Shown: positions 2,573-33,766 of the stretch, in pieces | Layout of the letters: each line of letters starts with the position of its first letter | Position numbering within the stretch: the first letter of the stretch is position 1 | Origin: Deltaproteobacteria bacterium | Lineage (GTDB): Bacteria > Desulfobacterota > Desulfarculia > Adiutricales > Adiutricaceae | Assembly (NCBI GenBank): GCA_031264185.1 | Contig: JAISEL010000071.1 | Location: 62,001 to 126,000, forward strand | Reading direction: 5' to 3' | Length of the DNA: 64,000 nucleotides | Notes under the pieces: model-generated | Databases searched by the model: none | The model's input: only the letters and a program-made list of their open reading frames with translations | Told to the model about the DNA's origin: nothing | Translations under genes and position numbers: made by a program

Positions 2573-3367
2573 TTAATATTCCGGCACTGCCATTCCCCTT
2601 TTAAAGCAGCCGTTTTCATAAATCCGCTGTCTTCTGGCCATCTCCTCAGCCGCCGCCTCAGCCTGACTCGAACTTAATAAGCCTGAGCATATAATCTTCT
2701 TTAAAGCTTTTACCCGATAAAAATCCAGCCCCCACTGGCCGGAGAGCTGATCGTCCCGCCCTCCGCAGCGGATAACCAGGCCGCGATCCAAAAGGCCGAT
2801 CGGAAACCGGCAGGTCAGCCGAAGCCAAAGTTCGTAATCTTCGCAGGCCGGGAAATCTTCGTCAAAATAACCGATTTCATTAAAAATCTCCGGCCGGATA
2901 ATAACGGCCGAAGGACTGATTAAGCACAACCGGACTGATTCCAAAAAGATGGACCCCTGTTTTTTCTCGTGTTTTCGGCCTGGATTGACTCTGACTCCGC
3001 CCCGGAACCAAATCTCCCGGCACTGGGAGACTGAAAACTGGGGTCTGGCCGCCATATCCAGAACCTGCGCCTCTAATTTTCCTGGCAAATATTCATCATC
3101 ACTGTCTAAAAAGGCCACATAGTCCCCGGTGGCTCTTTTAAGACCTGCGTTTCTGGCCGCAGCTACGCCCCGGTTAGATTGGGAAATTAAGATCAGCCGG
3201 CCGGCGTCGGCCAGAGGTCTTAAGATTCCGGCCGTTTCATCGGTTGAGCCGTCGTCCACCACAATCAGCTCTGTATCAACCCCTTTTTGGCCTAAAACCG
3301 AATTAACGGCCCTGGTCAGGCAAAAAGCCCGGTTATAAGTCGGGATTATGACAGAAACCACAGACAC
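2573..3367 (-). CDS. family 2 glycosyltransferase
   Basis: Inverting nucleotide-sugar glycosyltransferase of the GT-A fold (GT2), 264 residues. The N-terminus SVIIPTYNRAF followed by VVDDGSTDET is the classic nucleotide-binding start. DSDD at about residues 88-91 is the metal-binding DXD region, and a later acidic motif (ACEDYELWLRL) fits the catalytic base area. The GTG start lies inside the last codons of the upstream ispH-ubiA gene (22-bp overlap), so the two are probably translationally coupled. The acceptor is unknown; the isoprenoid neighbour would fit a lipid-linked sugar, but that is inference. Confidence 0.88.
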   Translation of the reverse strand: MSVVSVIIPTYNRAFCLTRAVNSVLGQKGVDTELIVVDDGSTDETAGILRPLADAGRLILISQSNRGVAAARNAGLKRATGDYVAFLDSDDEYLPGKLEAQVLDMAARPQFSVSQCREIWFRGGVRVNPGRKHEKKQGSIFLESVRLCLISPSAVIIRPEIFNEIGYFDEDFPACEDYELWLRLTCRFPIGLLDRGLVIRCGGRDDQLSGQWGLDFYRVKALKKIICSGLLSSSQAEAAAEEMARRQRIYENGCFKRGMAVPEY

Positions 3368-5088
3368 GCCGCCGCTGCTCCGGAAAAAATAAATTGGGCG
3401 TCAACCATTAAATCAAACTGAAATCCCCGAAGGCCGGGATTCCGGAAAAACAGATGGGCTATGACCAGATTATAGACCGGTCCGGCCAGCCACAGCCAGA
3501 TTATAACAGGAGGCCGCCCGCAAACTATATAAGCTAAAAGGAGATACATTGACCATATTATTAAAAGACCTCTAAGTAAACGGGCCGCTCCTCTCTGGCC
3601 TAAAATAGTCACCACAGTCGTGTCGCCAAAAAGCCGGTCACCGTAGGCATCCTGAAGATCCATGAGCATGGTCCGGGCCAGCACATTTAAAAAAACCGCC
3701 CCGCCCATGAGCGCAACCAGCCCGGCACCGGCCCAGGTCCGGGCAATTAAAGGCGGTTGGGCTAAAACGGGCGGCAAAACCAAAAGAGCCGCCCAGCCCA
3801 GACTGATGGACAGGGTTTTGGACAAAGGCAGGTCTTTCAGCCTGCGTATACCGGCCACTGAAAAAGGCCAGCGCACGGCGTAAAATAAACCTAAAAAACT
3901 TTGGATTATAAGCTGCATTAAAACTAAAGATCCGGCTAAGTAGGCGGCGGAAAGGGACAGAATTAAGGACCAGATCCCGGCGGCCATTAACGGCAAGCGG
4001 TATTGGCGCAAAAATACAGCCCGATCAGGATCATTATACCGGGCAGATTCCCGGTCCAGAAAGCCGTTTAATAAATGCATAGCCTGAACATAAAAAAACG
4101 ACAGTCCGAAAAAAATATCCGGCATGGGGTAACCGCCCCATACAGAAATAGCCCATCCTAAAAGACCGGCCCCTAAACCGGCGTAGATATTGGATAAAGC
4201 CAAAGCCCGAAACAGACGCCGGAAAAAGCCGGACAAATTAAATTCATTATGCCGGCCCAAAGCCTCCAGTCTTTGGAGGACAGCCCTGATCTGCCAGATG
4301 GGAGTAGAGGCTCCGGACAGAAGTCCGAGAGTTTTAATTTCCCGGATATCTAAAGCCTCCAGTTCTTCCGGTCCCTCCACGGCCACAGTTATTTTTCCGC
4401 CCCGCCCGGCTAAAGCGGCCAGTCTTTTGGTATTTCCGCTGTCCCGCCCCCCGACGACCACCAGCAAGTCGGCTTCTTCAGAAAGTCTGATAGCCTCCCT
4501 TTGCCGGTTAATCGTAGCTTTACATATTGTATCCCTGTAGCCGGCCCGAGGCCATCGGGCAAGCACGGCTTTAATTACCTCGGGCCATTCATCGTGGTCC
4601 TGGGTCGTCTGCGCCACTAAAAATACCCCGCCATAATCCGGAAGACTGCAAACATCCTCAGGCCGGCCAAAAACCACTCCCCGGCCGGCGGCGTAGCCCA
4701 GCAAACCCTCAACTTCCGGATGTCCGGCCGACCCCCATATCAAAACCTGACGGCCTTCGGCAGCCTGTTTCTGAACCAGCCTTTGAACTCCGGCTACTTT
4801 GGGACAGGTGGCATCAACGACCTTAACTCCTTGAACTCTTAAATCCTCTTCTTCAACCGGGGGAAGACCATGAGCCCGGATTATGACCGTAGCCCGCCCG
4901 GAATCATCGTGCCCCGGCCAAAGTTTTAAACCCTTGCCGGCCAGAAGTTCCCTGGCGGGCTTATTATGAATTAGAGGGCCGTGGCTGTAGACCGGACCGT
5001 TTCTTTTAGCCAGATTCTGAAAGGCCAGATCCATGGCACGGCGAACGCCAAAACAGTAGCCCAGATGCTGGGACAGTTCTATCTTCAC
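3346..5088 (-). CDS. ispH: IspH-UbiA fusion: HMBPP reductase joined to a UbiA-family prenyltransferase
   Basis: Residues 1 to about 280 are IspH, the [4Fe-4S] enzyme that makes IPP and DMAPP in the last MEP-pathway step. All three cluster cysteines are visible (GYCFGVRRA, VDATCPKV, TICKATINRQ), with the substrate histidines in HGPLIHN and RAHGLPP, the glutamate in HPEVEG, SGNTKRL, and GASTP near the domain end. Residues from about 290 to 580 are a polytopic UbiA-type segment. It has a degenerate first aspartate motif (NGFLDRESARYNDPDR) and a clearer second one (DLQDAYGDRLFGD). IspH is normally about 280-320 residues, so this 580-residue chain is a true in-frame fusion with no stop or frameshift. 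The C-terminal acceptor is unknown. Confidence 0.9.
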   Translation of the reverse strand: MKIELSQHLGYCFGVRRAMDLAFQNLAKRNGPVYSHGPLIHNKPARELLAGKGLKLWPGHDDSGRATVIIRAHGLPPVEEEDLRVQGVKVVDATCPKVAGVQRLVQKQAAEGRQVLIWGSAGHPEVEGLLGYAAGRGVVFGRPEDVCSLPDYGGVFLVAQTTQDHDEWPEVIKAVLARWPRAGYRDTICKATINRQREAIRLSEEADLLVVVGGRDSGNTKRLAALAGRGGKITVAVEGPEELEALDIREIKTLGLLSGASTPIWQIRAVLQRLEALGRHNEFNLSGFFRRLFRALALSNIYAGLGAGLLGWAISVWGGYPMPDIFFGLSFFYVQAMHLLNGFLDRESARYNDPDRAVFLRQYRLPLMAAGIWSLILSLSAAYLAGSLVLMQLIIQSFLGLFYAVRWPFSVAGIRRLKDLPLSKTLSISLGWAALLVLPPVLAQPPLIARTWAGAGLVALMGGAVFLNVLARTMLMDLQDAYGDRLFGDTTVVTILGQRGAARLLRGLLIIWSMYLLLAYIVCGRPPVIIWLWLAGPVYNLVIAHLFFRNPGLRGFQFDLMVDAQFIFSGAAAACLWFLS

Positions 5089-10680: not shown

Positions 10681-11829
10681 TTATCTGCCGGCGCTGGCCT
10701 TTAAAGTATCCGAAAGTTCACTGCTGTGTTCAGCCTGACTGGAATTCCAGATTCTGAGCACTTCGTCAATGTCGGTTAAAAAGATGTCCACTACCTCTGG
10801 ATCGAAATGGCGGCCCCGACCTTCCAGAATAATGGTCAGAGCCTGTTCCATGGTAAAGGCCTTTTTGTACGGTCTTCTGGACATTAAAGCATCAAAGACA
10901 TCGGCCACGGCCACTATCCGGCCGGCTAGGGGGATATCCCGGCCCTTTAAGCCGTTGGGGTACCCGGAACCGTCAAACTTTTCGTGGTGGGTTTTGGCAA
11001 TCACTTCGCCCAGCCTTAAAAAACCAATGTCGGAATTTTCCAGAATTTTGCCCCCGTATACTGTATGAAGGCGCATAATGGTCCATTCTTCTTCATTTAA
11101 AGGCCCGTTTTTCAGAAGGATTCGGTCCGGTATGCCAATTTTGCCAATATCGTGCATGGGCGAGGCGTAAAGGATGCTTTCCACCGTAGCCGGGGACAAG
11201 TTCATTCTCTCGGCAATCCGGGCTGAAATCCGGCTCATACTGATAATGTGAGCCCCGGTATCTTCGTCTTTAAATTCCGCAGCTCTGGATAACCGGAAAA
11301 TTGTTTCCAAAGAAGCGCCCCGCAGTTTTTCATGGGCTTTGGCCAGCTTCAGGTTCGTTTCCTGAATCTCCACCGTCCTTCGCCGGACCTCCGATTCCAG
11401 CTCCTGACGGTAATTGACCATATGGTCATTATAAGCCTTAACTTTAAGAAGAGATCTGACCCTGGCCCTCAATTCCATCCGGTCTACAGGCTTGGTCAAA
11501 AAATCGTCCGCGCCCACTTCCAAGGCTTTAACCCGATCATTGACATCCTGCAGGGCAGTGACCATAACTATGGGAATTAAAGAGTATTTTTCTTCCGCTT
11601 TCAGCTCCTTGACTACTTCAAAGCCATTTAATTTAGGCATCATTATGTCTAAAAGGATCAAATCCGGAACTACCTGCCGGACTTTTTCCAGACATTCTTC
11701 TCCGTCATTGGCCTGGATAACTGTATATCCCTGGGGCTTGAGCATAGCAGTGATGAGTTTTAAGTTTAAAACTTCATCATCAACTACCATTACAATCGGA
11801 GTTTTGGCTGTAGTCACTTCATCGGTCAT
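10681..11829 (-). CDS. response regulator with HD-GYP phosphodiesterase domain
   Basis: A 382-residue cytoplasmic regulator. Residues 12-130 form a receiver domain with VVDDE, the phospho-acceptor region DLILLDIMMPKLNG and the lysine in DDFLTKPVD. A short coiled linker leads to an HD-GYP domain (about 175-355) with HDIGKIGIP, HHEKFDGSGYPNGLKG and VADVFDALMSRRPYK. HD-GYP domains hydrolyse cyclic di-GMP; all the usual metal and GYP residues are visible, so activity is likely. No sensor kinase is adjacent. Single-gene transcription unit with its own terminator. Confidence 0.93.
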   Translation of the reverse strand: MTDEVTTAKTPIVMVVDDEVLNLKLITAMLKPQGYTVIQANDGEECLEKVRQVVPDLILLDIMMPKLNGFEVVKELKAEEKYSLIPIVMVTALQDVNDRVKALEVGADDFLTKPVDRMELRARVRSLLKVKAYNDHMVNYRQELESEVRRRTVEIQETNLKLAKAHEKLRGASLETIFRLSRAAEFKDEDTGAHIISMSRISARIAERMNLSPATVESILYASPMHDIGKIGIPDRILLKNGPLNEEEWTIMRLHTVYGGKILENSDIGFLRLGEVIAKTHHEKFDGSGYPNGLKGRDIPLAGRIVAVADVFDALMSRRPYKKAFTMEQALTIILEGRGRHFDPEVVDIFLTDIDEVLRIWNSSQAEHSSELSDTLKASAGR

Positions 11830-18698: not shown

Positions 18699-18833
18699 TA
18701 ATTCGGAGCTAACTGGTTTTTTGATATACATAAACCTTCTAAATAACTTTATCTTATTCTTTTATTCAATTAATATAACCGAATGCCGATAATATAAGTG
18801 GACCTTTTTAATGGGAGGCTGTATTATTATTAT

Positions 18834-21800
18834 ATGTCGGTAAGCCAGAGGACATATCGGAACATATTTCTGATTTTTGGACTGGTCGGACTGGTTACAG
18901 GTTCCTTCGGGCTAAAATCCGGCCCCCTACTGGCTGACCCTGTCCAATTAAAAGACATTGCTTTGGGAACCACTTCTGGCTATAACCGCCTAGTCTTCAC
19001 TTTCAGCGGCCAACTGCCAGATGTTATCCTGCGCCGGGACGATGTCAACGTCCTGCATCTTGATTTTGGTCCGGTCTCAAGAGGTGATGTTCAAAACGGC
19101 CCCACTAATGATATCGTCGGTTCCATACGCCTCAGTACGGCAAACGATCACTTAACAGCTGATATAAATCTGCATGTCAATAAATTTGAGGTCCGTCATT
19201 TTCTGAGCCGGGATCGCTATTCCTGTATTGTGGATATCAATGCCTTAGACGCCCCTATTAATGTCCCGACCGTTCCTCAGACAGAGTCCGGGGAAGATGT
19301 CAGCAGAATGAATCCCCCGCCCTTAAATGAAGTCCTGCGGGGCCTCTCATTTTTTATCCAGACCAATAATAATCCTGGATCTCCTGAAAACTTGGTTCAG
19401 AGGGCTTTTGACGATTTGATGGCCGGTCGCTTCGATGACGGCATTGAAAAGCTGACCAGCTTTAAAACTCAATATCCGGATCACCCTTATGCCGATCCGG
19501 CCTGGTTTGTTTTAGGGGACGCTTATTTTGCCAAAGGAATTCCGGATAATTTTTTAAACGCCACCACAGCCTGGCGTGAGGCTATGGACGCTTTTCCTAA
19601 CAGTATCACCTCCCCAAGAGCCTGCTTTATGATTGCCGAAGCTAACCGGTTAAACGGCAACCGCAACGAGGCAGCCGGATTTTTTAAACTCTGCGCGGAA
19701 AATTATCCCGACAGTCCCTTAGCCAATTTATCTTTACTTAGGGCCGCGGATCTGGAGCTGGCTATGGGACTGAACAATCAGGCCAGAACTACGGTCGGGC
19801 CTTTGGTGTCTCAGGGATTATTTTCTAAATTTGGACTCCTTGGGCGGGGCCGACTGGCCATGGCCGATTATCAAGATACTCTCTACAGTCAGGCCTGCGA
19901 AAAATTTATTGACATTCTGGACCATGATCCCAATATTTTTCAGCTCTATCCAGAGATTCTCTACGCTTTAGGCGACAGCTACTCCTATTTAAACCGTCCG
20001 GATTTGACTGTTCATTTTTTGGAACACGCTTTAAACGTAATCCCCAATCACCCTAAAACCGACGTTATGCTGGCCAGAATCGGCAACGCTCTCCAGGCTA
20101 TGGGCAGACATCCCGAGGCCATTAGCTACTTTAATGTGGCCAAAAACCGTTTTCCCGATAAAGACGGCGGTCTGGTCAGTCAAATCAGGTTAGCCGATAT
20201 GGGCGCTCTCCAGGCCTTTTTTTCTGCCGACCAAGTCTTTGATGCCTTAGAAAGAGGTTCTAACCAAGCCACTGTCAAGATGTATGACAAAATTATTTCC
20301 CAGGCCTCCGATTCCCCTTTGCTTCAGTTAGCATACCTGAAAATAGGCCAGGCACAGGCAGCAGACGGCGAAAACAACGAAGCCATTAAATGGCTCAGAA
20401 CTTTAATCTCTAAATATCCAAAAGGTATTCTCCTCAATGAGGCCAAGCCCATAATGAGCAGGGCGGTAGTCAACGAGGCCCAGGAAAGCTTTAATCTGGG
20501 GCATTATGAGAATGTTGATCTTTTAAATTACGATAATTTTTCTTATTTAGAAGGTCCGGACCGTTTACGGTTTCAAAGGCTTTTGGCCCAATCGTACGAA
20601 AACTTAGGCCGGACCGAAGACGCTTTAAGAGTCTGGAAAGATATCGAAGATCAATCCCCGGAAAAAAGGCTGACTGACCAAAAAGAAGTCATTGAAGCTG
20701 CTTTAAAGGCTTTTAAACCCCAGGAGGCTATGGAGCAAATAAGGGCCAGTATAAAAGAATTCCCGGACGAAAGGCCCTATTTTGACCAAAAAATAGCTGA
20801 AGTGGAAAGCGCTCTGGCCAGACCGGCCAATGAGGCGGCCGTTCAGGATCTTTTAAACTTTTACCGGGATCCTCTGGTTGCCCCTTTGGAGATTGTCAGT
20901 CAGCAGGCTTTATCCGATGCCATTACCATTTTGGTCAATAACAAGCACTACGACCAGGCCTCTTCTTTAATGGACAATTACAGAAACTTATTCCCGGCCG
21001 ACGAACTGTCCCCGGAATATCTGCTGACTCAGTCTAAAATTGATCGCCGTTTAGGCCGAATTCAGGAAGGCTGGGACAGGTTGTCTGATTTTCGTCTGGA
21101 ATATCCGGCCGACGAACGGGTTCCGGCCACCATTGAAGAAACTATTGCCGATGCCCGTAAAAGAAAAATGTATCCTGACGCTTACCGCTACGAAGAGCTT
21201 TACCGGCAGATTTATCCCGAGGACATTAAATCTCGCAATATGCTTTTAGCCAGAGCCAACGAGCAGTGGCAGCTTGGTCAGAATATGGATGCCATAGATA
21301 CTCTGACCTATTTTCAAAATGAATACCCGAATGATCCCGAAACTCCGGCTACATATTTAGACCAATATCAAAAGCTTCTGGATTCAAGCAACCCTTTAAG
21401 AGCTTTCGCCGCTTTAGATAAAATGCGCGAACTTTTTCCCGATGACCCTTTGACCCGTAATTCTTATGTCCGGGAATATTACGACGCCTTAAAAGCAGGA
21501 GAACCTGACGTGGCTTTTGGAGCCATGACAGCTTTTCAGAAGCTTTATCCCGATGATCCAAGGCAGCCCGATTTACTTCTTGAAGAAGCTAAAGACTATA
21601 TGGCCTTAGGCCGTTTGGATGAAGGTCTGGCGGCCTGGAATATGTTTCTGGAAAAATATCCCTCTGACGAACGGGCCCCGGATTTACTTCTTCTTCAGGC
21701 CAGGATGGAACTTAAAGAAAAGCGTAATGATCCGGCTTTAGCCCATTATCATGAATATCTGAATACTTATCCCGACCGGCCCAACCGGCCGGAAGTTATC

Positions 21801-22493
21801 CAGGAAGTGGCCAGAATAGAAACAGGTCTGGGTTTAAATAAGGAAGCTTTTGACGATTTGCAAAAATTTAGAATGGACTATCCAGGGCACCCCGACGAGC
21901 CCCAAACAATTTTAGATCAGATTAATTTAGCCTCAAATATGGGCCAGATCGATATTATGACGGCTTTATATTCATTCTTTCGTGATAATTTTCCTCGCCA
22001 TCCCCAGGTCACCCAGACCTATTTAGACGAGACGAGACAATTATTGGCCGTCGGCCGAAGTTCCCCGGCTCTGGCCGTTTTAGAAGAAGGAATTGTTAAA
22101 ACCCCTGATCTTGACAAAAACCAGGGAGTTCAGGATTTACTTTTAGGCCTTTATTTGGATGAAGGCCGTCCGGAAGACTGGGCCGGCGCTCTGGAAGAAT
22201 TTTTGGGCCGGGAGCAGCCTAATGAAACTAATTTAGCCGACCGCTTTAATAAATATACTCAGGTAGCCCAGGTTTATCAGGAACTGGGGCGCCAGACAGA
22301 TGCCGAAAGAAACTATGATCAGGCTCTGGCCAATCGGCCGCCCGACGCTTCCGGAGAATCTTTATTTGCAATTGCGGGAGGATACAAAAAAATGGGCCGC
22401 GATGAAAGATACCGTTCAGTTTTAGAAATAATCAGCGCTCTGCCCGATCCACTCTGGCAAAATGTGGCTAATCAGGAACTTAATCGCGGTTAA
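18834..22493 (+). CDS. large exported TPR-repeat protein with AMIN-like N-terminus
   Basis: About 1219 residues. An in-frame GTG exists at 18798, but MSVSQRTYRN at 18834 starts a normal signal peptide (hydrophobic IFLIFGLVGLVTG, cleavage probably near LLADP). Residues of about 35-130 resemble an AMIN-type beta domain, which targets envelope proteins to peptidoglycan. The rest is a chain of degenerate tetratricopeptide repeats of about 35-40 residues, with recurring YPDDP/YPSDERAPDLLLLQA turns. Many are tol-pal YbgF-like. It is probably periplasmic and part of a cell-envelope or secretion assembly; no partner gene is adjacent. An AT-rich gap separates it from the activator upstream. Confidence 0.8.
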   Translation: MSVSQRTYRNIFLIFGLVGLVTGSFGLKSGPLLADPVQLKDIALGTTSGYNRLVFTFSGQLPDVILRRDDVNVLHLDFGPVSRGDVQNGPTNDIVGSIRLSTANDHLTADINLHVNKFEVRHFLSRDRYSCIVDINALDAPINVPTVPQTESGEDVSRMNPPPLNEVLRGLSFFIQTNNNPGSPENLVQRAFDDLMAGRFDDGIEKLTSFKTQYPDHPYADPAWFVLGDAYFAKGIPDNFLNATTAWREAMDAFPNSITSPRACFMIAEANRLNGNRNEAAGFFKLCAENYPDSPLANLSLLRAADLELAMGLNNQARTTVGPLVSQGLFSKFGLLGRGRLAMADYQDTLYSQACEKFIDILDHDPNIFQLYPEILYALGDSYSYLNRPDLTVHFLEHALNVIPNHPKTDVMLARIGNALQAMGRHPEAISYFNVAKNRFPDKDGGLVSQIRLADMGALQAFFSADQVFDALERGSNQATVKMYDKIISQASDSPLLQLAYLKIGQAQAADGENNEAIKWLRTLISKYPKGILLNEAKPIMSRAVVNEAQESFNLGHYENVDLLNYDNFSYLEGPDRLRFQRLLAQSYENLGRTEDALRVWKDIEDQSPEKRLTDQKEVIEAALKAFKPQEAMEQIRASIKEFPDERPYFDQKIAEVESALARPANEAAVQDLLNFYRDPLVAPLEIVSQQALSDAITILVNNKHYDQASSLMDNYRNLFPADELSPEYLLTQSKIDRRLGRIQEGWDRLSDFRLEYPADERVPATIEETIADARKRKMYPDAYRYEELYRQIYPEDIKSRNMLLARANEQWQLGQNMDAIDTLTYFQNEYPNDPETPATYLDQYQKLLDSSNPLRAFAALDKMRELFPDDPLTRNSYVREYYDALKAGEPDVAFGAMTAFQKLYPDDPRQPDLLLEEAKDYMALGRLDEGLAAWNMFLEKYPSDERAPDLLLLQARMELKEKRNDPALAHYHEYLNTYPDRPNRPEVIQEVARIETGLGLNKEAFDDLQKFRMDYPGHPDEPQTILDQINLASNMGQIDIMTALYSFFRDNFPRHPQVTQTYLDETRQLLAVGRSSPALAVLEEGIVKTPDLDKNQGVQDLLLGLYLDEGRPEDWAGALEEFLGREQPNETNLADRFNKYTQVAQVYQELGRQTDAERNYDQALANRPPDASGESLFAIAGGYKKMGRDERYRSVLEIISALPDPLWQNVANQELNRG

Positions 22494-23316: not shown

Positions 23317-24336
23317 TCATTTAAGGTCAGGCAAACCAGGCTTAAAACTTTCGATGATCATCAAAACCGGCAGTATAGAACCAATTGTCAGTAAGACAAC
23401 ATAGTTAGGATTACGCATAGCCTGATTGGCCATGGGGTTAAGCCAGAAAAGAGTAACCAGGATGATAAAGGTACTGACTTTCCAATGGCCGTATTTGGCC
23501 GCTGCTTTTTGAAAAGCGTGTTCTTTATGGGCCGTAAATACTTTTTGGCCGTGTATAAATCTCCGGCCTAAAGTCAAAGTGGCGTCTATCCAGAAAAACG
23601 ACATTATTATAATGAAGCCGTACATCAGGAAATTGCCGTAAATAAGTCCTCTGGCTCCCAAAGCGAAAAAGGCAAAACCCAAAAACGTTGAACCCACATC
23701 ACCCATAAATATTTTACTTGGAAACCAATTAAATATTAAAAATGGAATTGTTATATAAATAATTGTTTTATAAACATCAATATTCCATTCTTCAACATGA
23801 AATCCATTATATATACAGAATAAAAATCCGACCGCTGCTGCATTGGCATAACCGCCGGCCAGACCGTCAATTCCGTCCATAAAATTATATAAGTTTATAA
23901 ACCAGACCCCTGCAAATACTAATACTATTTTAATTGCAATAATTGGTATGCCTTTTATCGGATTATAAGCCGGAAGGAAGACTATCATTAAGGCAGCTGC
24001 CAAAAACTGGATGAGTAATCTGGGCAGAACCGGCAGTGACTTGATATCATCAATTAAGCCGACTGCGGAAATTAAAAATCCGCCAACGAAAAATTCAGGA
24101 CAGGTCTTAAAAGCCTTGAGATTTGCCAACAGAATAATTCCTGCCAAAGCAATGCCGCCGCCGCTGGGAGTTGGTTTATAGTGGGAACTTCGGTTGTTGG
24201 GAATATCAATCAGTCCGGTGTAGGGCGCTGTTTTAATTAGGATATACAGAAAGACTGTGGCTACAAAAAAATAAGAAAAATAATAAGTAAAGTTAAGTAT
24301 ATAAACGTTAACTAAGAAGAAAAGGTAATCATCCAT
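23317..24336 (-). CDS. MraY/WecA-family glycosyl-1-phosphate transferase
   Basis: A 339-residue polytopic membrane enzyme that transfers a sugar-1-phosphate from a UDP-sugar to undecaprenyl phosphate. Typical motifs are SSHYKPTPSGGGIALA, the aspartate loop FMDGIDGLAGG, KIFMGDVGSTFLGF and HKEHAFQKA. The HKEHAF-type loop and the length point to the WecA/TagO/WbpL branch that starts O-antigen or teichoic-type polymers, rather than MraY itself. No polysaccharide genes adjoin it. It follows the parAB genes in the same direction with a 93-bp AT-rich gap. Confidence 0.88.
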   Translation of the reverse strand: MDDYLFFLVNVYILNFTYYFSYFFVATVFLYILIKTAPYTGLIDIPNNRSSHYKPTPSGGGIALAGIILLANLKAFKTCPEFFVGGFLISAVGLIDDIKSLPVLPRLLIQFLAAALMIVFLPAYNPIKGIPIIAIKIVLVFAGVWFINLYNFMDGIDGLAGGYANAAAVGFLFCIYNGFHVEEWNIDVYKTIIYITIPFLIFNWFPSKIFMGDVGSTFLGFAFFALGARGLIYGNFLMYGFIIIMSFFWIDATLTLGRRFIHGQKVFTAHKEHAFQKAAAKYGHWKVSTFIILVTLFWLNPMANQAMRNPNYVVLLTIGSILPVLMIIESFKPGLPDLK

Positions 24337-24429
24337 GGTCTAATCTTTCTATGATTTTTTTTCGTATCAGTTATATTGGATGTACCTTTATTTTCCAATT
24401 AAAAAATTGTATTGATTAAAAAAAAGTTA

Positions 24430-25275
24430 TTAATAAATATTAAGTTTAGATTTAAGCATGTCTACATCATCATTACTGGCATAATAAATATCTATCCTCT
24501 TTTTCTGACCATTGTATTTAATTTTAACTTTCAGACCGCCCAAGCTGTCTGAAAAGCTTGAGCCCAATGCCTCATAGTAGGCCTTTTTATTCAGCCCTTT
24601 CATAGACTTATGTTTTTTGCCCGTATTAATTTTTTTTGTCAGTTTTTCCGCATCTCTGACTGACATGGCTTGGCTCAGTATCAGACTTCTGGCTTCCAGC
24701 ATGTCTTTAGGCTCGTTCAGCGATAAAATAGCCCGGCCGTGACCGGCTGACAGGCGATTGTATCTGATATCGTCTTTAATAGGTTCAGGCAGTTCTAAAA
24801 GCCGGATGGTGTTAGCTATGGTTGAACGGTCTTTGCCAAACATCTTAGCTATTTCCAGGATATCTAGGCCCAGTTCAAGTTCCAGGCGATGATAACCTTC
24901 GCCTTCCTCTATGGGATTTAAGTTTTCCCGAAAGATATTTTCCATCATGGCCAATTCCAGCCGCAACTTGGGTTCATCGGGAATTTGTCTAATAACAGCT
25001 GGGACTTCTTTTTCTCCGGCTTCTTTGGCTGCTAAAAGCCGCCTATGGCCGACAATAAGTTGGTAGCTGTCTTTGCCTTCCAGATGCCTTACCACCAAAG
25101 GTTCTATTATGCCGCTAGATTTAATGGAATCTGCCAGCTTGGTAATTTCAGTTTTTTTGTAAAACTTTCTTGGCTGGTCCGGATTGGGCAAAATCTTATG
25201 GACCGAGATCATTAAAGGACTACCCTGAGTCTTTTTATCAGGTTCCATAATATTTTGTTCTGAAGGTTTATTCAT
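24430..25275 (-). CDS. ParB-family partition protein, second copy (lacks N-terminal ParA-contact peptide)
   Basis: A 281-residue paralogue of the upstream ParB. It keeps the CTP-binding and clamp motifs ([27 protein letters not shown]) and the helix-turn-helix ([18 protein letters not shown], then SAGHGRAILSL). The arginine of KDR and the SAGHG segment are the parS-type signature; Noc proteins, which bind a different site, have glutamine and a different segment there, so I infer parS binding. The N-terminus (MNKPSEQNIMEPDKKTQ) lacks the K-x-G-LG-x-GL-type peptide that stimulates ParA and is present in the first copy. It lies 35 bp downstream of that copy. Confidence 0.9.
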   Translation of the reverse strand: MNKPSEQNIMEPDKKTQGSPLMISVHKILPNPDQPRKFYKKTEITKLADSIKSSGIIEPLVVRHLEGKDSYQLIVGHRRLLAAKEAGEKEVPAVIRQIPDEPKLRLELAMMENIFRENLNPIEEGEGYHRLELELGLDILEIAKMFGKDRSTIANTIRLLELPEPIKDDIRYNRLSAGHGRAILSLNEPKDMLEARSLILSQAMSVRDAEKLTKKINTGKKHKSMKGLNKKAYYEALGSSFSDSLGGLKVKIKYNGQKKRIDIYYASNDDVDMLKSKLNIY

Positions 25276-25310
25276 ATATTTTATCTTTATTTAACACATT
25301 ATTATACTAA

Positions 25311-26237
25311 TTATGAGACAATTGAAACGCCTAATTTATTCATAATAATCTCAATATCTTCAATTTTGTTGTAGTATATTTCCATTTTTTTCTTTTTACC
25401 CAGACTTTTGAAGACTACCTGAAGTCCCAAGCCTTTGGAAAAACTTGAAGAAAGGTTTTCCAGAAGTTCCTTGTCCGGATCATCTTTAAGATTAGCGGGT
25501 TTATTTTTATTGTTCAGTTTTTTGGCCAGATTTTCCGTATTGCGGACACTTAAGGATTTTTCCACAATAAAATTTCTGGCCGTCAGCCTGTCTGTTTGAT
25601 CCTGGATGGATAAAATAGCCTTGCCATGACCGGCCGACAAAATACCTGTCCTAATATCGTCTTTAATTTCTTCCGGCAGTTCTAACAATCTGATGCTGTT
25701 GGAAATTGTCGAACGGTCTTTGCCAAAGAGTCGGGCAATTTCCAAGACATCCTGGCCGATTTCCTTTTCAAGGCGGTAAAATCCCTCAGCTTCCTCAATA
25801 GGATTAAGATTTTCTCGGAAAATATTTTCCAGCATGGCGATTTCCAGTCGTTGGCGAGAATCGTCAGGAATATCTTTGAAAATAACCGGAACTTCCTTGA
25901 ACCCCGCCTGTTTGGAGGCCAGAAGTCGCCGGTGTCCGACTAAAAGCTGATAAGTGTCATTCTGTAAGGGTCTGACCACTAAAGGTTCAATGATACCCTT
26001 AGCTCTAACGGAATCGGAAAGCTTGTTCATCTCATTGGAATTAAAATACTTTCTTGGCTGATCTGGGTTAACCGAGATTTTTTCAATTGAAACCATCAGT
26101 GGAAGACCATTGGCCGTTTTCGAGGCCTCAGATTCTGTCTTACCGGCTGTTGCTGCGTCGCCGTATAGAGTATCTATTCCACCCAAGCCAAACTTTTCGA
26201 CGGCGCTACTTCCTAAGCCACCCTTTTTTTTTGTCAT
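25311..26237 (-). CDS. parB: chromosome-partitioning protein ParB
   Basis: A 308-residue ParB/Spo0J. The N-terminus ([22 protein letters not shown]) resembles the ParA-activating peptide. The N-domain carries [19 protein letters not shown] and [17 protein letters not shown], the CTPase motifs that allow clamp sliding from parS. The helix-turn-helix is [18 protein letters not shown] followed by [11 protein letters not shown], with parS-type specificity residues. A C-terminal dimerisation segment follows. The start overlaps the parA stop by four bases (ATGA), so the two are translationally coupled. Confidence 0.94.
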
Positions 26238-27019
26238 TTTTTCATTTCCTTCATACCAAGTCTTTCCAGGATTTCCTTGGTCAGTTGAATATAGCTGACT
26301 GTACCAGCAGATTTAGGGTCGTGATACATAACCGGTATACCAAAACTTGGACTTTCTGATATTCTAACGTTTTGGGGAATTTTAGTCTCCAAAACCAAAT
26401 CTCCCATGGCCTTTTTTAGGTCATTTTCCACGTCAATACAAATATTTGTACTTTTATTATACATTGTTAATAATATTCCTAAAAAAGAAATATTGGTATT
26501 TATTTTTGCTTTTATTTTTTCATAGGACTTGACTAGAATTACTAGCCCTTTTAAAGCAAAAAAGTCGGATGACTTAATAGGAACAAGGATTTTGTCAGCC
26601 ATGCTTAAAATATTAATATTAATAATACCTAAATTTGGCGGTGAATCTATAATAACAAAATCGTAGTCATCTAATTGATTTCCGATCCTGTTTTTTAACA
26701 GTAAATTTCTTGATTCATGGTCAACAACAGTAATATCCAGAGAATACATATTTTCATCTGAAGGTATGATATCAAGATTTTCAAAATTAGTTTTTAAAAT
26801 ATAACTACTAACTTCACCCCCGTCTACGATTAAATTATACAGACTTTTGTCTAAATTGTAAGTGTTAATGCCCAGACCAACGGCGCTGTTGCCTTGGGGA
26901 TCAGCGTCAATCAGGAGGGTCTTATAGTTGAACGAGGCCAGTGATGCTGATATATTAACAGCGGTTGTCGTTTTTCCTACCCCGCCTTTTTGATTGGCGA
27001 TTGCTATTACAGTGGTCAT
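26234..27019 (-). CDS. parA: chromosome-partitioning ATPase ParA/Soj
   Basis: A 261-residue deviant-Walker ATPase that moves ParB-parS complexes over the nucleoid. [19 protein letters not shown] is the P-loop with its signature lysine, IDADPQGN is switch I, and [12 protein letters not shown] is Walker B. The length is that of chromosomal rather than plasmid ParA, and there is no N-terminal helix-turn-helix. The natural start [13 protein letters not shown] abuts element B. It heads the parA-parB-parB2 operon and is divergent from rsmG. Confidence 0.96.
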
Positions 27020-27372
27020 CCGATTTTCGGCGTATAAACCCAGGTCTTCAGGCTAGGGAGGAAACGCCGCCTTCTGAAGTTCTGTTTAAATTAAGAATTA
27101 AGGATACGATTTACTTAATGAATACCATTACAGACTGAAAAAGACGGACTGTTTGAGGCCTTTTTCCTCGGATATGTTTGACGCCTATTTTTAGGTACCG
27201 ACTTGTCTTAAATTTATACTTGGCTTATCTGTAGCCGCAATTTCTAGAGGCGAAGTTTTTGAAGCGCCACGCCGATTTTTATACATACTGAAAATGTAGC
27301 GGGTTGGTTACCGTTTTCAGGTTAATTCAGGATTCTTAGAAATCTCCTGCTTTAACTGGCAGTTTTTATCTG
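27020..27372 (-). mobile_element. HEARO-like element B, directly before the parA start
   Basis: About 350 bp on the minus strand, closely matching element A along its length: GAAAACGGTAACC, CGCTA, a paired region around AAACTTCGCC...GAAATTGCGGC, and the end GGCGGCGTTTCCTCCCTAGCC. It finishes immediately before ATGA of parA. The Shine-Dalgarno-like sequence is weaker here (AGAAGG at 27075-27070). The stem halves CGGCG and CGCCG are conserved and the 8-nt spacer is AAAATCGG. No coding sequence is inside. It also separates parA from the divergent rsmG. Confidence 0.6.
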
Positions 27373-27399
27373 AACTTTTGCCAAAAAAGAGATTTAAAA

Positions 27400-28050
27400 A
27401 TGGTTGCCGAACTACTAGAAAAATGTCTAGATATTTTAAATATTGACGTTAAAAATGACTATAAACAAACTTTAATATCTTATTGGATATTATTGTTATC
27501 AAAAAATGAGACAATAAATTTAATAAGCCCTCACGGATCTTTGGAATATAAAGTTGTTAACCATTTAGTCGATAGTCTTACCCCATTAAGACTTCCCTGG
27601 CCTCGAGGTATGAGGATTATGGATTTTGGTTCAGGCGGCGGTTTACCTGGCATTCCCCTACAAATTTTTAATCCTGGCTGGTATGTTACCTTAGTTGAGT
27701 CAAAACTCAAAAAGGCAAATTTTTTAAAAGAGGTTACGCAGGACCTTAAATTAAAAAACTGTAATGTTATTGACAGCCGGGTTGATGGTAGTTATCAGTT
27801 TAAGGACGGCCTGTTCGAGCTTATAGTAGCCCGGGCTATTGGTAAAATATATGATATTATACCAAAAATAAATAAGTTTTTAAAAGTCGGCGGTATTTTT
27901 CTCGCTTATAAAGGCCCAAAGTATGCTGAAGAACTAGCTTTATCTCAGCCTGTATTAAAAAAATACAACTACCAATTAAATCATAAAGAGTTTTTTACAT
28001 TACCTTATGTAAATGCAGAACGTAATTTACTTGTCTTCAAAAAGTTATAG
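27400..28050 (+). CDS. rsmG: 16S rRNA m7G527 methyltransferase RsmG (GidB)
   Basis: A 216-residue SAM-dependent methyltransferase that modifies G527 of 16S rRNA. MDFGSGGGLPGIPL is the SAM-binding motif, VTLVESKLKKANFLKEV the next family block, and LIVARAIGKI a later one. NLISPHGSLEYKVVNHLVDSL is the N-terminal signature. rsmG beside parAB is a classic replication-origin-proximal arrangement, although here they are divergent and separated by element B. Codon use is more AT-rich than in genes before 24 kb, matching the local composition. Confidence 0.95.
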   Translation: MVAELLEKCLDILNIDVKNDYKQTLISYWILLLSKNETINLISPHGSLEYKVVNHLVDSLTPLRLPWPRGMRIMDFGSGGGLPGIPLQIFNPGWYVTLVESKLKKANFLKEVTQDLKLKNCNVIDSRVDGSYQFKDGLFELIVARAIGKIYDIIPKINKFLKVGGIFLAYKGPKYAEELALSQPVLKKYNYQLNHKEFFTLPYVNAERNLLVFKKL

Positions 28051-28058
28051 TACGTTTA

Positions 28059-28517
28059 TTATTCACAAAATGGCTGACAGATATTCATAGGTCTTAGGGC
28101 CGTATACTGGTCGCCCTGAGTTTTCATGACCAAAATATTTCTGACTGTCCTCTCCCAAGGGCTACCATCGGTCGTTGTCCAGGTTACCTTGTATCTGGCT
28201 TCATATTCCAGGCACACGCAGTAAAGTTCTTTTGGATCCTGAAGTTCAATTAAAGTTCCAGTTGGGGCCATTGGCGTAATGTTAATAGGTTTGACTTTTT
28301 GGATTTGCCACATTGTGCTGTCTTTATAGCTGGTCTGAAGACCTTGGACAGCAGCCCTTTCTATAGGGTTTTCCGGCAGTGCAACAGGTTCCGGATTATC
28401 TTCTTTTTTGTCTCCAATGCCTAAGCTGCTACAGCCCACAGTAACAGCAAGTATGGTCACCAGCATTGATATAGCCCAGTGATGGAAAACATTTTTTAGG
28501 TTCGTTTTTTTAGTCAT
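28059..28517 (-). CDS. probable lipoprotein, function unknown
   Basis: About 152 residues from MTKKTNLKNVF (an in-frame ATG four codons earlier overlaps the upstream gene). A signal peptide ends in a lipobox-like VTVGC, so it is likely anchored by lipidated Cys. The mature part has three more cysteines (CVCLE, NICQPFCE) and an aromatic beta-like core (ARYKVTWTTTDGSPWERTV). I do not recognise the family. It is coupled to the upstream small gene and converges with rsmG. Confidence 0.7.
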   Translation of the reverse strand: MTKKTNLKNVFHHWAISMLVTILAVTVGCSSLGIGDKKEDNPEPVALPENPIERAAVQGLQTSYKDSTMWQIQKVKPINITPMAPTGTLIELQDPKELYCVCLEYEARYKVTWTTTDGSPWERTVRNILVMKTQGDQYTALRPMNICQPFCE

Positions 28518-28519
28518 AA

Positions 28520-28858
28520 CTATTTGCATGAGGTTAAATTTAACGTTTCAGAAAGCTTATTGGCAAAGTTATAAATATATAAAAATTGTTCAATATTTAA
28601 AACTCCGCCGCCCATATTACTTATTGATGATGTCCTTATTAAAAGTTCGAACTTAAGCCATGTTTTGCCTAATTCAATGGCAATTTTGAAAGGACCGGCG
28701 TTTTCTTTAATATCCTTTTGTTCTCTAGTAAGAATTTCGTCTGGGAGAGTAACCCAAAATAATCCTTCAATCGGGCCAGCCATGACAGATGAGATTAGAT
28801 AATTTTTTATGGCCTCAATCTCATCAGCTCTCAGCTCATCAAATAATAAAGATCTCAT
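28520..28858 (-). CDS. conserved-looking small protein, function unknown
   Basis: A 112-residue cytoplasmic protein without signal peptide or membrane segment. It starts MRSLLFDELRADEIEAIKNYL and has a mixed charged/hydrophobic pattern typical of a compact fold. It is probably co-transcribed with the lipoprotein gene that follows within a few bases. I do not recognise a family. Confidence 0.6.
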   Translation of the reverse strand: MRSLLFDELRADEIEAIKNYLISSVMAGPIEGLFWVTLPDEILTREQKDIKENAGPFKIAIELGKTWLKFELLIRTSSISNMGGGVLNIEQFLYIYNFANKLSETLNLTSCK

Positions 28859-30162
28859 ATTTTTATATTAACATGTTTCAGATTATAAAATCTGTTTTAA
28901 GTAAAAAATTTTATTATTTTAACTATTTTAATACTTAATTAACAGTATTAACAACCCGGGCTATTACAGGGGTTAACGCAGAAACTTAAAATATACCATA
29001 CGATAAATTTTATTGCATCATTTTTTTAGGTTCTTAACGAGCGATATTTGATTGTTTATTTAGGGTGACCAAAATTTTTCTTTTATTCTGAATTTATATA
29101 GCTGATATATAGTAAAAAATAAGTTTTAAATAATATTTTTATATAAAAAATATATAATTATTAGAGCGTTATTATATGAAAATATAGTGAGTCAAGTTAA
29201 AAAAATAGAAAATAATCTTATTAGGGCTTTGAAATTTTCCAGAACCTGTAAAAAATTCTTCTCAAGCCCACAATTATTTTTTGAAACAGACTTTTGGTTC
29301 CGATTTCCAGTTTGGTATTCTATTATATACTTTATGATTTTATAGTAATATGACCTTATTTTTAATCATTGGCGGGCACTTTCAGTTTTTTTGATAACCA
29401 TTTTTCGGATTTATTGGTTTTTTTGACAGAATCAGCATAACCGGTACTTCTAAAAGACTTCGACATTATAGTTAGTGTCAACGGACTTTGAATTCCGAAA
29501 ATTGCTATAGCCACTAACAGTTCAAAGAAGTTAGATGCTCCAATCATTTCGGCAGGAGTGGCTATACCACAGAGGGGGATTTAAACTCATATACAGACTA
29601 AATAGACTATAAAAAATATAAAAAATCTTGATAATTAAAATATGACTATTAGAACGATACAAAGAAGATTTTCTAAGATAACATTTCACTGAAATTAAAA
29701 GATGATGACCAAAATCAGAAGGAGACCAGCTATGGTTATATTTTTAAATTTTTGGAATATAAATATATTGATAATAGTTAAGTCCATTTTGTTGTTGACA
29801 ATATAGCTAGTTACGAAGACTCAGGCCATTGGTGTAAATGCGACCAAAATTATTAGGTCATTCGTTGCCACTTGGAAAACAATATAAATGGATTTCCTTT
29901 GGTTAAATGGCCCAAAGCACAGACCATAACCGTACATTGGCAACCTAAAGGAAGACAACTCGGACCAGATAATCTCTGGCCAAATTAGCTGGTGTTAGAG
30001 GTTTGAAGATTACGCAGAAAAACAGGCTGGCGATGTCGAAGAGAAACAATCACTGGGTAATGAAACAGTATACTCCAATCGTCAGAATTATAGATATAAC
30101 AAGAATTAAGAAAATTATTCTAATTAAAAAAGGCTTCGAAGTTCAGCGGAGTTGAGAAAGTC
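28859..30162. other. AT-rich gene-free region left of the parS array
   Basis: Roughly 1.3 kb with AT content well above the window average and no intact gene. It contains the transporter relic noted separately. I looked for a cluster of DnaA boxes (TTATCCACA) and saw none, only single near-matches, so an origin cannot be claimed. Confidence 0.45.
29362..29900 (-). pseudogene. relic of a membrane transporter resembling an ACR3-type arsenite pump
   Basis: The minus strand reads AEMIGASNFFELLVAIAIFG then SPLTL in one frame (29362-29575), which resembles the conserved GASNFFELAVAVA segment near the C-terminus of ACR3/bile-acid-family transporters. Upstream, hydrophobic stretches such as LIILVAFTPMA and ITIAGLLLILVIIF continue to about 29900 but are broken by stops and frame changes. 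No start is left. Family assignment rests mainly on the one motif. Confidence 0.45.
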
Positions 30163-30732
30163 TGTTTAACGTGAAACAGTGAGTTTTGATTTATCATATA
30201 TTTTGTTATCCGCACATTTTGATACAATGAAACCTAACCACTAATAATTTTGAAAGCTATTCTAATTAAAACAAGCTTCCGACACCTCTGGAGATAAAAA
30301 GTCTGCTTCTCGCGAAACAATGATATTAGAATCATAAATAGCTTGAGACATATATTGGGTGAAACAATTATTCCTAGTTGGAGCTAATACCTAATAGTAG
30401 CTTTACTTAAACAGCTTCTAGAGTAATTAACGGACAAAAAAGTCTGTTTAAAGTGGAACAAGAGATTCAAAATCTTCAAAGCATCTGTGAACTATTAAAC
30501 TTGTAATAATAATTTTTTTTACAGAAAAATACCTAGCCATGCCTAAACAGCCTCTTAAATTACAGAAGTACAAAACAAAATTTTTCACATAAAACAAGGG
30601 GACAGAATTCTCAAAGTGCTTGTGATCTGTTCTTCGTGAAACAATGGTTTTAATTGTAGAAATACTGAAAGCTATCCCAGCTGAAACAAAATTAAGTTGT
30701 AAGTTGTTTGAATTTATAAAATGGTTGTTACT

Positions 30733-30748
30733 TGTTCCACGTGAAACA
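30733..30748. promoter_or_regulatory. parS site (TGTTCCACGTGAAACA)
   Basis: Exact match to the bacterial consensus TGTTNCACGTGAAACA. It is the leftmost intact site of the array. Confidence 0.9.
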
Positions 30749-30874
30749 ATGATTGTTTATCACTGAAAATATAGAAAACGAGCATTATGTGAATAAATCC
30801 CTGGAGTGAAAATATGACCAAGAACCTGTTCCAAACTAAACAAGAGTTTTAGACTCCTTAAAGTGCTGGTGACA

Positions 30875-30890
30875 TGTTTCACGTGAAACA
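30875..30890. promoter_or_regulatory. parS site (perfect palindrome)
   Basis: TGTTTCACGTGAAACA, fully palindromic and identical to the canonical parS. It lies 142 bp from the previous site. Confidence 0.93.
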
Positions 30891-31018
30891 ACTGTTTCAT
30901 ATTGATGAATCTATAAAAACCGCCCCTTATTAAAAATCAGTCTCTCGAGTTAACAATAGAACAAATAATCTGTTTCATGTGAAATAAAGGTCTCAAACTG
31001 CTTAAAGTTCTTATGACA

Positions 31019-31034
31019 CGTTCCACGTGAAACA
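31019..31034. promoter_or_regulatory. parS-like site, one change
   Basis: CGTTCCACGTGAAACA, differing from consensus only at the outermost base. Confidence 0.8.
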
Positions 31035-31160
31035 ATGATTTTGTATTAATGAAAATACAGAAAACGAGCCTTCCAGAAATAAGTCTCTGGATTTAATAAA
31101 GAAGAAAAATATGTTCAATACAGAAATAAATCTCTTTAATTAACAAAGAGCAAAAAAACC

Positions 31161-31176
31161 TGTTCCACGTGAAACA
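31161..31176. promoter_or_regulatory. parS site (TGTTCCACGTGAAACA)
   Basis: Exact consensus with C at the variable position, 142 bp from the previous site. Confidence 0.9.
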
Positions 31177-31278
31177 AGGTTCTCAAAATTATAAAAACTC
31201 TTGTAACCCATACCACAAAAATTTTGTTACCTATAACATATGAAAAAAGGATCTCAAATTTAACAGAGTGCTTGTGCC

Positions 31279-31294
31279 TGTTTCACGTGAAACA
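31279..31294. promoter_or_regulatory. parS site (perfect palindrome)
   Basis: TGTTTCACGTGAAACA, followed by the recurrent spacer core at 31311. Confidence 0.93.
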
Positions 31295-31370
31295 ATGATT
31301 TAATTTTTATGAAAATACAGAAAACGAGTCTTAGAGGAATAAGTCTCTTTATACCAGAAGGCAAAGAATC

Positions 31371-31386
31371 TGTTCCACGTGAAACA
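31371..31386. promoter_or_regulatory. parS site (TGTTCCACGTGAAACA)
   Basis: Exact consensus, 92 bp after the preceding site, preceded by the recurrent AGGCAAAGAATC spacer end. Confidence 0.9.
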
Positions 31387-31554
31387 AGAGTCTAAAAATT
31401 ATTGAGACGCTTGTAATCTGTACGCACAAAAAAACCTTAAACTCAACAAAGACTTTGTAACCTGTTTCGCGTGAAACAATGATTTCATATTGATGAAATA
31501 CAAAAAACGAGCCTTGGAGAAATAGGTCTCTTTAGTTAACAAAAGACTAAAATC

Positions 31555-31570
31555 TGTTACACGTGAAACA
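31555..31570. promoter_or_regulatory. parS site (TGTTACACGTGAAACA)
   Basis: Consensus with A at the variable fifth position. It is 92 bp after the one-mismatch site at 31463. Confidence 0.88.
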
Positions 31571-31650
31571 AGGATCTTAAAAATATTTAAGTGTTTGTAA
31601 CCTGTACCTATCGAAACAAGGCACTCAGATTCAACAAAATATTTACGACC

Positions 31651-31666
31651 TGTTTCACGTGAAACA
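31651..31666. promoter_or_regulatory. parS site (perfect palindrome)
   Basis: TGTTTCACGTGAAACA, third fully palindromic copy, followed by the spacer core. Confidence 0.93.
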
Positions 31667-31742
31667 ATGATAAAATACTTATGAAAATACAAAAAACGAG
31701 CCTAAGAGAAATAAGCCTCTTTATACCAGAAGGCAAAGAATC

Positions 31743-31758
31743 TGTTCCACGTGAAACA
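31743..31758. promoter_or_regulatory. parS site (TGTTCCACGTGAAACA)
   Basis: Exact consensus, paired with a one-mismatch site 48 bp downstream (31791). Confidence 0.9.
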
Positions 31759-31884
31759 AGGGTTTCAGAATTATTAAAATGCTTGTTACCTGTTTTACGT
31801 GAAACAATGATAACATATTCATGAAAATACAAAAAACGAGCCTAAGAGAAATATGTCTCTTTAATTACCAGAAGGCAAAGAATC

Positions 31885-31900
31885 TGTTCCACGTGAAACA
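31885..31900. promoter_or_regulatory. parS site (TGTTCCACGTGAAACA)
   Basis: Exact consensus. A degraded site follows 48 bp later (31933) and a one-mismatch site 95 bp later (31980). Confidence 0.9.
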
Positions 31901-32073
31901 AGAATCTCAAAATTACTAAAATACTTGTAGCCTGTACCTCGTGAAAAAAGGATCTCAGACTCATCAAAGTGCTGTGAGCTGTTTCACTTGAAACAATAAT
32001 TTCATACTTTTGAAAATACAGAAAATGAGCCTAAGAGAAATATGCCTCTTTAATTACCAGAAGGCAAAGAATC

Positions 32074-32089
32074 TGTTCCACGTGAAACA
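32074..32089. promoter_or_regulatory. parS site (TGTTCCACGTGAAACA)
   Basis: Exact consensus. The next copy, at 32122, has lost one base. Confidence 0.9.
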
Positions 32090-32888
32090 AGGGTTTCAAA
32101 ATTATTAAAATACTTGCGACCTGTTTAACGTGAACAATGATTTCATATTTATGAAAATACAGAAAACGAGCCTAAGAGAAATAAGCCATTTTAGTTAACA
32201 AAGGGCAAAGAATCTGTTCCACCTGAAACAAGGAAATCAAAGTCATTAAAATGCTTGTAACCTGTACCTTGTGAAAAAAGATCTCAGATTTTACAAAGTG
32301 TTTGTGACCGGTTTTACGTGAAAAAAAGATCTCAGATTGATGAAATACATAAAATGAGCCTTAATACAAACAACCCCTACAGAAATAAGTCTCTAGAATT
32401 GAAAACTGACAAATAATTTGTTTCACGTGCAACAGGTTCTCATAATCTTAAAACACTGAGTACTTGTTCCACTTAAAACAATGATTCTTAATCGCCGAAA
32501 TAAAGAATACTGAACACACCGAAACAAGCTTCCGGAGTTACCAAAGATCAAAACATCTGTCTGTCCTATTAAAATAGATGGAGTGTGATCATTATTCAAC
32601 TAGTAAAAATAATTTATAAATACTTGAAATTCTTAAAACTAACTTCAGTGGCAATCCGGCGAAGCTAATAAATGGAAAAAATAGGTTGATGGAAAAAATG
32701 AGATTAGAATAATCAATAGTTTCTGTAAGAAGACTTTGGGTTGCCGAACGGAAAGAACGTGTTTCAAGTGAAACTCGGTTTGATGGTCTTCGAGATGGAA
32801 AAATAAATGATACTGTTTAGAGATATACTTAAATTTCGGGAAATTGATTTCATGAAAAAGGTAGCATAAGTGGCTAAGGAAAAAATGC

Positions 32889-32904
32889 TGTTCCACGTGG
32901 AACA
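32889..32904. promoter_or_regulatory. outlying parS variant, perfect palindrome TGTTCCACGTGGAACA
   Basis: One base from the consensus, but symmetric because both half-sites carry the C/G variant. It stands apart from the array, about 450 bp beyond its regular part. Confidence 0.8.
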
Positions 32905-33766
32905 AAGAATTATGAACTTCAATAGGCTAAAGGATAATCAAAGTGAGAAATAAGAAACGAACCGGAGGTGTCAACGAAAATTTTCCTCTTCACAAAAAGC
33001 CAAGGCAATGATACTTCAAAGAGTTTCGTTTATCTTCAAAAAAAATTGAGCTATAACAATGTTTTTGAAATCTGTTTTACCTTAAAAAGAATTAAGGTTT
33101 TCGTTTTCAAAGGCAAGATAATTTGTTTCCCTATGGAACGAAAAATCAGAGACGATAATCTTAGGTGGAGAATTGATTTGGCAAAAGAGAAAAATAACCT
33201 CGCATACTGTATAATTAATAATTTACTGAGGAAAAGTGAATCAATTTACAGCTAGACAGAAAAAAAGCAAAGTGTTCCGCATAGACAATGGATAATTAAA
33301 ATGAATAATCATGGGATAAGAATTTTTTCAAAAATGGTTTTTATGAATTGGATTTTATAACTTGAAATATTATTGAAAATATGATTAATTATTTTTATTT
33401 GGTGGAAATATTTCTATATTTTTAATATAAATCATTAATACAATGGTATTTGAAAATAATTAAAAGCTATTTATATAAATAGAGGCAAATTTATTATTTT
33501 AGTTTGTTTTATATGTAATAATAAGTTAAAAAAGTTATAAAGATAAATTTATCAAATAATTAGGATAAAATTAGATATTAATAATGCATATAAAAACAAT
33601 ATTAATAATTAATATGTTGTTTATCAAAACTTAACCTGGTTGGATATATAAGATCAGTCCAAGGACCAGGTTTGGCTGAAGAAAACTGAACTTAAAAATG
33701 GACAATTAGCCCAAAATATTCAGATAGTGTATAATCAAAAAAATGACATTTTGCGGGGTTTGAAAA
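32905..33766. other. AT-rich gene-free region right of the parS array
   Basis: No convincing gene. One 95-codon open frame (32968-33255) has no clear ribosome binding site and a composition no different from its surroundings. 33340-33640 is the most AT-rich stretch of the window and could be an unwinding region, but I find no DnaA-box cluster beside it. Confidence 0.4.

Follow-up and report, generated by a model that had tools for sequence, protein, structure and literature searches.

Organization of the par locus

The DNA analysed here is a chromosomal stretch of 64,000 nucleotides, termed the window. It contains a compact operon, parA-parB1-parB2, on the minus strand. The first gene, parA (26234..27019, minus strand), encodes a Soj-type Walker ATPase (AAA_31, 9e-55), for which the nearest solved structure is ParA 8ray (2e-56). 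The second gene, parB1 (25311..26237, minus strand), encodes a protein of 308 amino acids that contains the ParB_N and HTH_ParB domains and an N-terminal glycine/leucine peptide. The third gene, parB2 (24430..25275, minus strand), encodes a protein of 281 amino acids that contains the same two domains and is devoid of a ParA-binding peptide. The start of parB1 overlaps the stop of parA by 4 bp, and a gap of 35 bp separates the stop of parB1 from the start of parB2. The initial annotation described a tandem parB duplication at positions 24430-26237. Complete open reading frames match this span, and the two adjacent proteins are 56% identical over 270 amino acids, so that the duplication is confirmed.

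The rsmG (gidB) gene (27400..28050, plus strand; TIGR00138 above cut-off) adjoins parA and is divergent from it. This gene is the classical oriC-side neighbour of parAB. The sign of the GC skew switches, and the cumulative GC skew reaches its minimum, at about 24-32 kb of the window. DnaA-box-like sites occur in the window only at the background level. The region at 24000-33000 is likely the replication origin, with a par locus of the usual oriC-side type. A plasmid locus is unlikely, because rsmG, ilvD and the GC-skew switch all lie around the par genes. A gene for SMC is found in the genome. Three other observations were made in the window. The GC content falls to 31-33% at 24000-33000. A TPR-repeat protein of 1231 amino acids with several YbgF/BamD-like stretches is encoded near the par locus, at 18798-22493, and is kept in the congeners. 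A single open reading frame at 3346-5088 encodes an apparent fusion, with LytB/IspH at residues 3-275 and a prenyltransferase domain resembling UbiA at residues 325-550.

The parS array

The parS array (30163..32904, plus strand) is 2.7 kb long and lies about 3.1 kb upstream of parA, within a non-coding gap of 4.9 kb that lacks long open reading frames. It contains 20 sites with two or fewer mismatches from the palindrome TGTTTCACGTGAAACA, as compared with none in 100 shuffles. Twelve of the array sites match TGTTNCACGTGNAACA exactly, and the number of sites rises to 28 when three mismatches are allowed. The spacings between the sites are near multiples of 47-48 bp. No site with two or fewer mismatches from parS is found outside the array in the 4.4-Mb assembly, indicating that all such sites form one cluster. 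These results bear out the claim that a dense array lies near the parB genes. Variation between half-sites was considered as a sign of two DNA specificities, but this reading was abandoned, because the base that varies corresponds to the N that the parS consensus tolerates.

In M. xanthus, where parA and parB form an operon, 22 parS sites are clustered within 3 kb, at a distance of about 4 kb upstream of parA (PMC3899335). The array in the window is of this known kind, with about 20 parS sites in about 3 kb located a few kb from parA. Two ParB proteins are therefore not required for a dense array, since M. xanthus has such an array with a parA-parB operon (PMC3899335).

Domains and key residues of ParB1 and ParB2

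Both ParB proteins contain ParB_N and HTH_ParB, with E values of about 1e-25 to 1e-29. Those of ParB2 are 4e-25 for PF02195 (ParB_N, the Srx-like CTPase domain) and 4e-29 for PF17762 (HTH_ParB). The identity between the two copies is 61% in the N-domain, 65% in the HTH domain and 43% in the dimerisation domain, which is the least conserved. The dimerisation domains of another orthologue pair of the family are 75% identical. The extra divergence of the C-terminal domain of ParB1 is a trend that is not significant (p = 0.10). The ancestral C-terminal strand GLKVKIKY is kept in ParB2 and lost in ParB1.

Functional residues were read from an alignment with the Caulobacter, Myxococcus and Bacillus ParB sequences of solved structures. 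The clamp/CTP motifs PDQPR, GHRR and ENIFR are intact in both copies. The GxRR motif reads GHRR in ParB2, with an E to H change, and the same histidine is present in ParB1 and in the ParB proteins of three other genomes (G017, G012 and G021). ParB2 retains the glutamine of PDQPR, R104, E135, N136, R173, T179, G201 and R204. ParB1 retains the same residues, except that it has S179 and K204. As the initial annotation had stated, both proteins keep their CTPase and helix-turn-helix motifs, including KDR, which contains the R173 equivalent, and SAGHG, which contains the G201 equivalent. The KDR motif is located at 25713..25721 in ParB1 and, within the recognition helix, at 24826..24834 in ParB2, and the SAGHG motif is located at 25623..25637 in ParB1 and at 24736..24750 in ParB2, all on the minus strand.

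Four residues determine the preference for parS or for the Noc site, and these are Q173, K179, K184 and R201 in Noc (PMC7383237). R173 and G201 are described as absolutely conserved in ParB (PMC7383237). At positions 173/179/184/201, ParB2 has R-T-E-G and ParB1 has R-S-E-G, both of the ParB type. Because ParB2 has these specificity residues and an arginine rather than a lysine at the DNA contact R204, it is, of the two proteins, if anything the closer to a canonical reader of DNA. The AF2 model of ParB2 has a mean pLDDT of 86, with residues 1-16 predicted to be disordered. In a Foldseek search it matches ParB-CTP structures, and the nucleotide-bound ParB of M. xanthus is the best match.

The ParA-contact peptide and ParA

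The ParB1 peptide (residues 3-27; 26157..26231, minus strand) was compared with the N-termini of 33 other ParB proteins, each with its paired ParA. Aligned with GLGRGIDGLL, it is rich in glycine and leucine, but lacks the R/K of LG[R/K]G. In ParB2, the position of this peptide is occupied by a short polar N-terminus (residues 1-19; 25219..25275, minus strand), as seen from the sequence and from the disorder in the AF2 model. The LG[R/K]G motif is absent from the ParB2 N-terminus. A hidden upstream start that would provide ParB2 with a peptide was rejected, because the open frame extends for only 286 codons from stop to stop. The claim that only the first copy has the ParA-contact peptide thus stands as to its location, but not as to an intact peptide, because that of ParB1 is degenerate.

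When residues 1-21 are removed from M. xanthus ParB, partition complexes are still formed, but ParA is no longer bound (PMC12462528). R13, a residue of the N-terminal motif of this protein, is not needed for ParA binding, but is needed for stimulation of the ATPase, and its predicted docking site on ParA consists of Y81/E82/D110/E117 (PMC12462528). In M. xanthus numbering, the window ParA has Y-N-N-T at 81/82/110/117, such that the acid E117 is replaced by T. All 30 ParA proteins that are paired with an R/K-bearing ParB have an acid, E or D, at position 117. The acid is lost in two of the four ParA proteins that are paired with an R/K-less ParB, being T in the window and I in a second genome (G021, L075). 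The association between E117 and R/K gives a Fisher p of 0.011 (2/4 versus 0/29) when kinship is ignored. This co-loss is suggestive support for the R13 docking model.

The role of ParB1 as a normal ParA contact is not secure, because its motif is degenerate, and this may be taken as a warning against regarding ParB1 as a standard ParA activator. Because ParB2 keeps its CTP and parS residues and lacks the ParA motif, the natural prediction is that it acts as a parS clamp but leaves ParA unstimulated. The initial annotation had proposed such a clamp. The part of the proposal that concerns the retained residues and the missing motif holds for ParB2, while the contrast with ParB1 is blurred by the changes in the ParB1 peptide and in the ParA pocket. 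ParB2 could also reach ParA through an unrecognised surface.

History of the duplication and constraint on the copies

ParB1 and ParB2 are sisters with support of 100/97 in a maximum-likelihood tree of 36 ParB proteins, and the nearest relative of the pair is a single-copy ParB from another genus. Because the two are sisters at this support, the duplication occurred within their own lineage. The phylogeny that had been proposed for dating the duplication thus gives a lineage-specific event. No adjacent parB pair is found elsewhere in the class among 63 genomes, 42 of which have a strong parB match, or in a phylum sample of 138 genomes with a completeness of 95% or more, of which 128 have parB. 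A scan of named genomes for relatives of these ParB proteins matched only distant ParB proteins. The tandem duplication is known from one MAG only.

Each copy keeps 44 of the 49 columns that are invariant in 11 other ParB proteins of the family, and two of the five losses in ParB2 are glycines of the peptide. Comparison of ParB1 with ParB2 gives a dN of 0.37 and a saturated dS. Both copies are under purifying selection. The possibility that ParB2 is a pseudogene or is decaying was rejected, because 44 of the 49 invariant columns are retained.

The parA, parB and rsmG genes are absent from all six congener bins (G001-G006). Near-perfect tandem parS arrays are nevertheless present beside the aminotransferase-ilvD genes, as in the window, in two of these bins, with 43-bp units in G003 (L059, G003:C187:1-1030) and with 40-bp units in G006 (L058, G006:C132:27185-28391), and both contigs break inside the arrays. 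At the other flank, the G004 contig stops at the glycosyltransferase gene, and a G006 contig (L089, G006:C3) extends about 0.9 kb past this gene and then ends. On the latter contig, a partial different gene, AAA-ATPase/nuclease-like by eye, is seen after position 10727, where parB2 would sit. True loss of parAB in the congeners was set aside, because the arrays and flanking genes are present and the contigs end at the locus. The simpler reading is that the missing par genes represent an assembly or binning gap. The par genes and rsmG are absent from the bins probably because the array breaks the assemblies beside the par locus, and MAGs of this kind may systematically lack segments at the oriC side.

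Discussion

The layout, residues, ancestry, constraint and shared parS cluster are read directly from the sequence, and from them we infer binding, clamp behaviour and division of labour. The best explanation is that parB was duplicated in tandem in this lineage at an oriC-side ParABS locus, and that the copies may have been partly subfunctionalised. ParB2 would load on the parS array, close with CTP and slide like any ParB. It would thereby build the partition complex, providing condensation and possibly the loading of SMC, while neither recruiting nor stimulating ParA. ParB1 would provide the ParA contact through its weakened motif. The ratio of ParB1 to ParB2, or the formation of mixed dimers, would then set how hard the complex pulls on ParA. 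That the two proteins are parS clamps of one ancestry, of which ParB2 builds or tunes the partition complex without ParA and ParB1 makes a modified contact, has in our estimate about an even chance of being correct. A stricter separation of function, in which ParB2 is a dedicated clamp and ParB1 recruits ParA without R/K, the ParA acid being gone and release being controlled otherwise, for example by the clamp ratio, is proposed tentatively.

Another possibility, to which we assign a rather low probability, is that ParB1 and ParB2 form heterodimers through the C-terminal domain, so that each clamp carries one ParA peptide and stimulates ParA less. The identities of the N-domain (61%) and HTH domain (65%) make mixed dimers conceivable, and in M. 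xanthus single peptides are far weaker stimulators of ParA than full-length dimers, which carry two linked peptides (PMC12462528). However, the two proteins are least alike in the dimerisation domain, at 43% identity as compared with 75% in the other orthologue pair, and the excess C-terminal divergence of ParB1, although not significant, also points away from mixed dimers.

It is unlikely that ParB2 is the main ParB, which both assembles the complex and contacts ParA in a new way, with ParB1 as a diverging copy. The retention of R204, A177, T179 and the GLKVKIKY strand in ParB2, all lost in ParB1, is consistent with this reading, as is the missing R/K trigger of the ParB1 peptide. However, ParB1 is equally constrained overall (44/49), and no chromosomal ParB is known to contact ParA outside the N-terminal motif (PMC12462528). 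Equally improbable is that ParB2 is redundant, having been retained through drift or for dosage, and that labour is not divided between the two proteins. Tandem duplication is a common route to higher dosage, and an array of 20-30 sites may need much ParB. Nevertheless, the two copies differ at 44% of their positions, indicating that the event is old, and ParB2 has specifically lost the ParA motif while the rest of the protein is retained.

The other role offered by the initial annotation, that of a Noc-like spatial regulator, in which ParB2 would bind DNA and influence division through the membrane or the divisome, is very improbable. In its favour, Noc also arose by parB duplication, and the N-terminus of Noc has diverged from that of Spo0J, which contacts ParA (PMC4331003; PMC7383237). 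However, ParB2 has R-T-E-G instead of Q-K-K-R, Noc-type sites in the genome (one exact and one with a single mismatch) equal the reversed-pattern control, the parS sites form a single cluster rather than being dispersed, the ParB2 N-terminus is polar and disordered with a low hydrophobic moment and contains no amphipathic membrane helix, and the TIGR04285 (Noc) scores of the two ParB proteins, 191.7 and 184.7 bits, are below the cut-off of 315.

Complex assembly and ParA-driven movement have so far been split by engineered mutants, namely ParB without its N-terminus and R13A. Evolution appears to have made the same split with two co-encoded paralogues. If the proposed subfunctionalisation is true, this locus would allow a direct test of whether the contact that each clamp makes with ParA is tuned, and of how parB paralogues diverge ahead of a change in DNA specificity, a stage that Noc may have passed through. 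The joint loss of R/K in ParB and of E117 in ParA in this family provides independent evidence from evolution with which to test the docking pocket proposed for R13.

Comparison with known systems

Neither the literature searched nor the genomes examined contained a parS-specific tandem ParB paralogue without the ParA motif, and four known systems share part of the arrangement. The sopC centromere of the F plasmid consists of tandem 43-bp repeats. The arrays described here likewise consist of tandem ParB-site repeats of a similar period (47-48 bp in the window, 43 bp in G003 and 40 bp in G006), but the repeated site is chromosomal parS rather than the SopB site, and the locus is chromosomal. 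PadC, the ParB-like adaptor of M. xanthus, is also a second ParB-domain protein that accompanies ParABS, and it is a weak structural match to ParB2. ParB2, in contrast to PadC, is a paralogue encoded in tandem with parB1 and retains both the HTH and the C-terminal domain for dimerisation. Noc of the Bacillales, which is encoded beside parAB in B. subtilis, resembles ParB2 in being a ParB-family paralogue that was born of parB duplication and whose N-terminus is no longer of the ParA-contacting type. Unlike Noc, ParB2 keeps parS specificity and has no amphipathic N-terminus, and dispersed Noc sites are absent from the genome. The ParABS system of M. xanthus (ParB 7bnk) shares with the window the parA-parB operon, the parS consensus and a dense cluster of parS sites located within a few kb of parA. 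In contrast to that system, the window has two tandem parB genes, one of them without the ParA motif, a site spacing near multiples of 47-48 bp, a ParB1 motif from which R/K is gone and a ParA from which E117 is gone.
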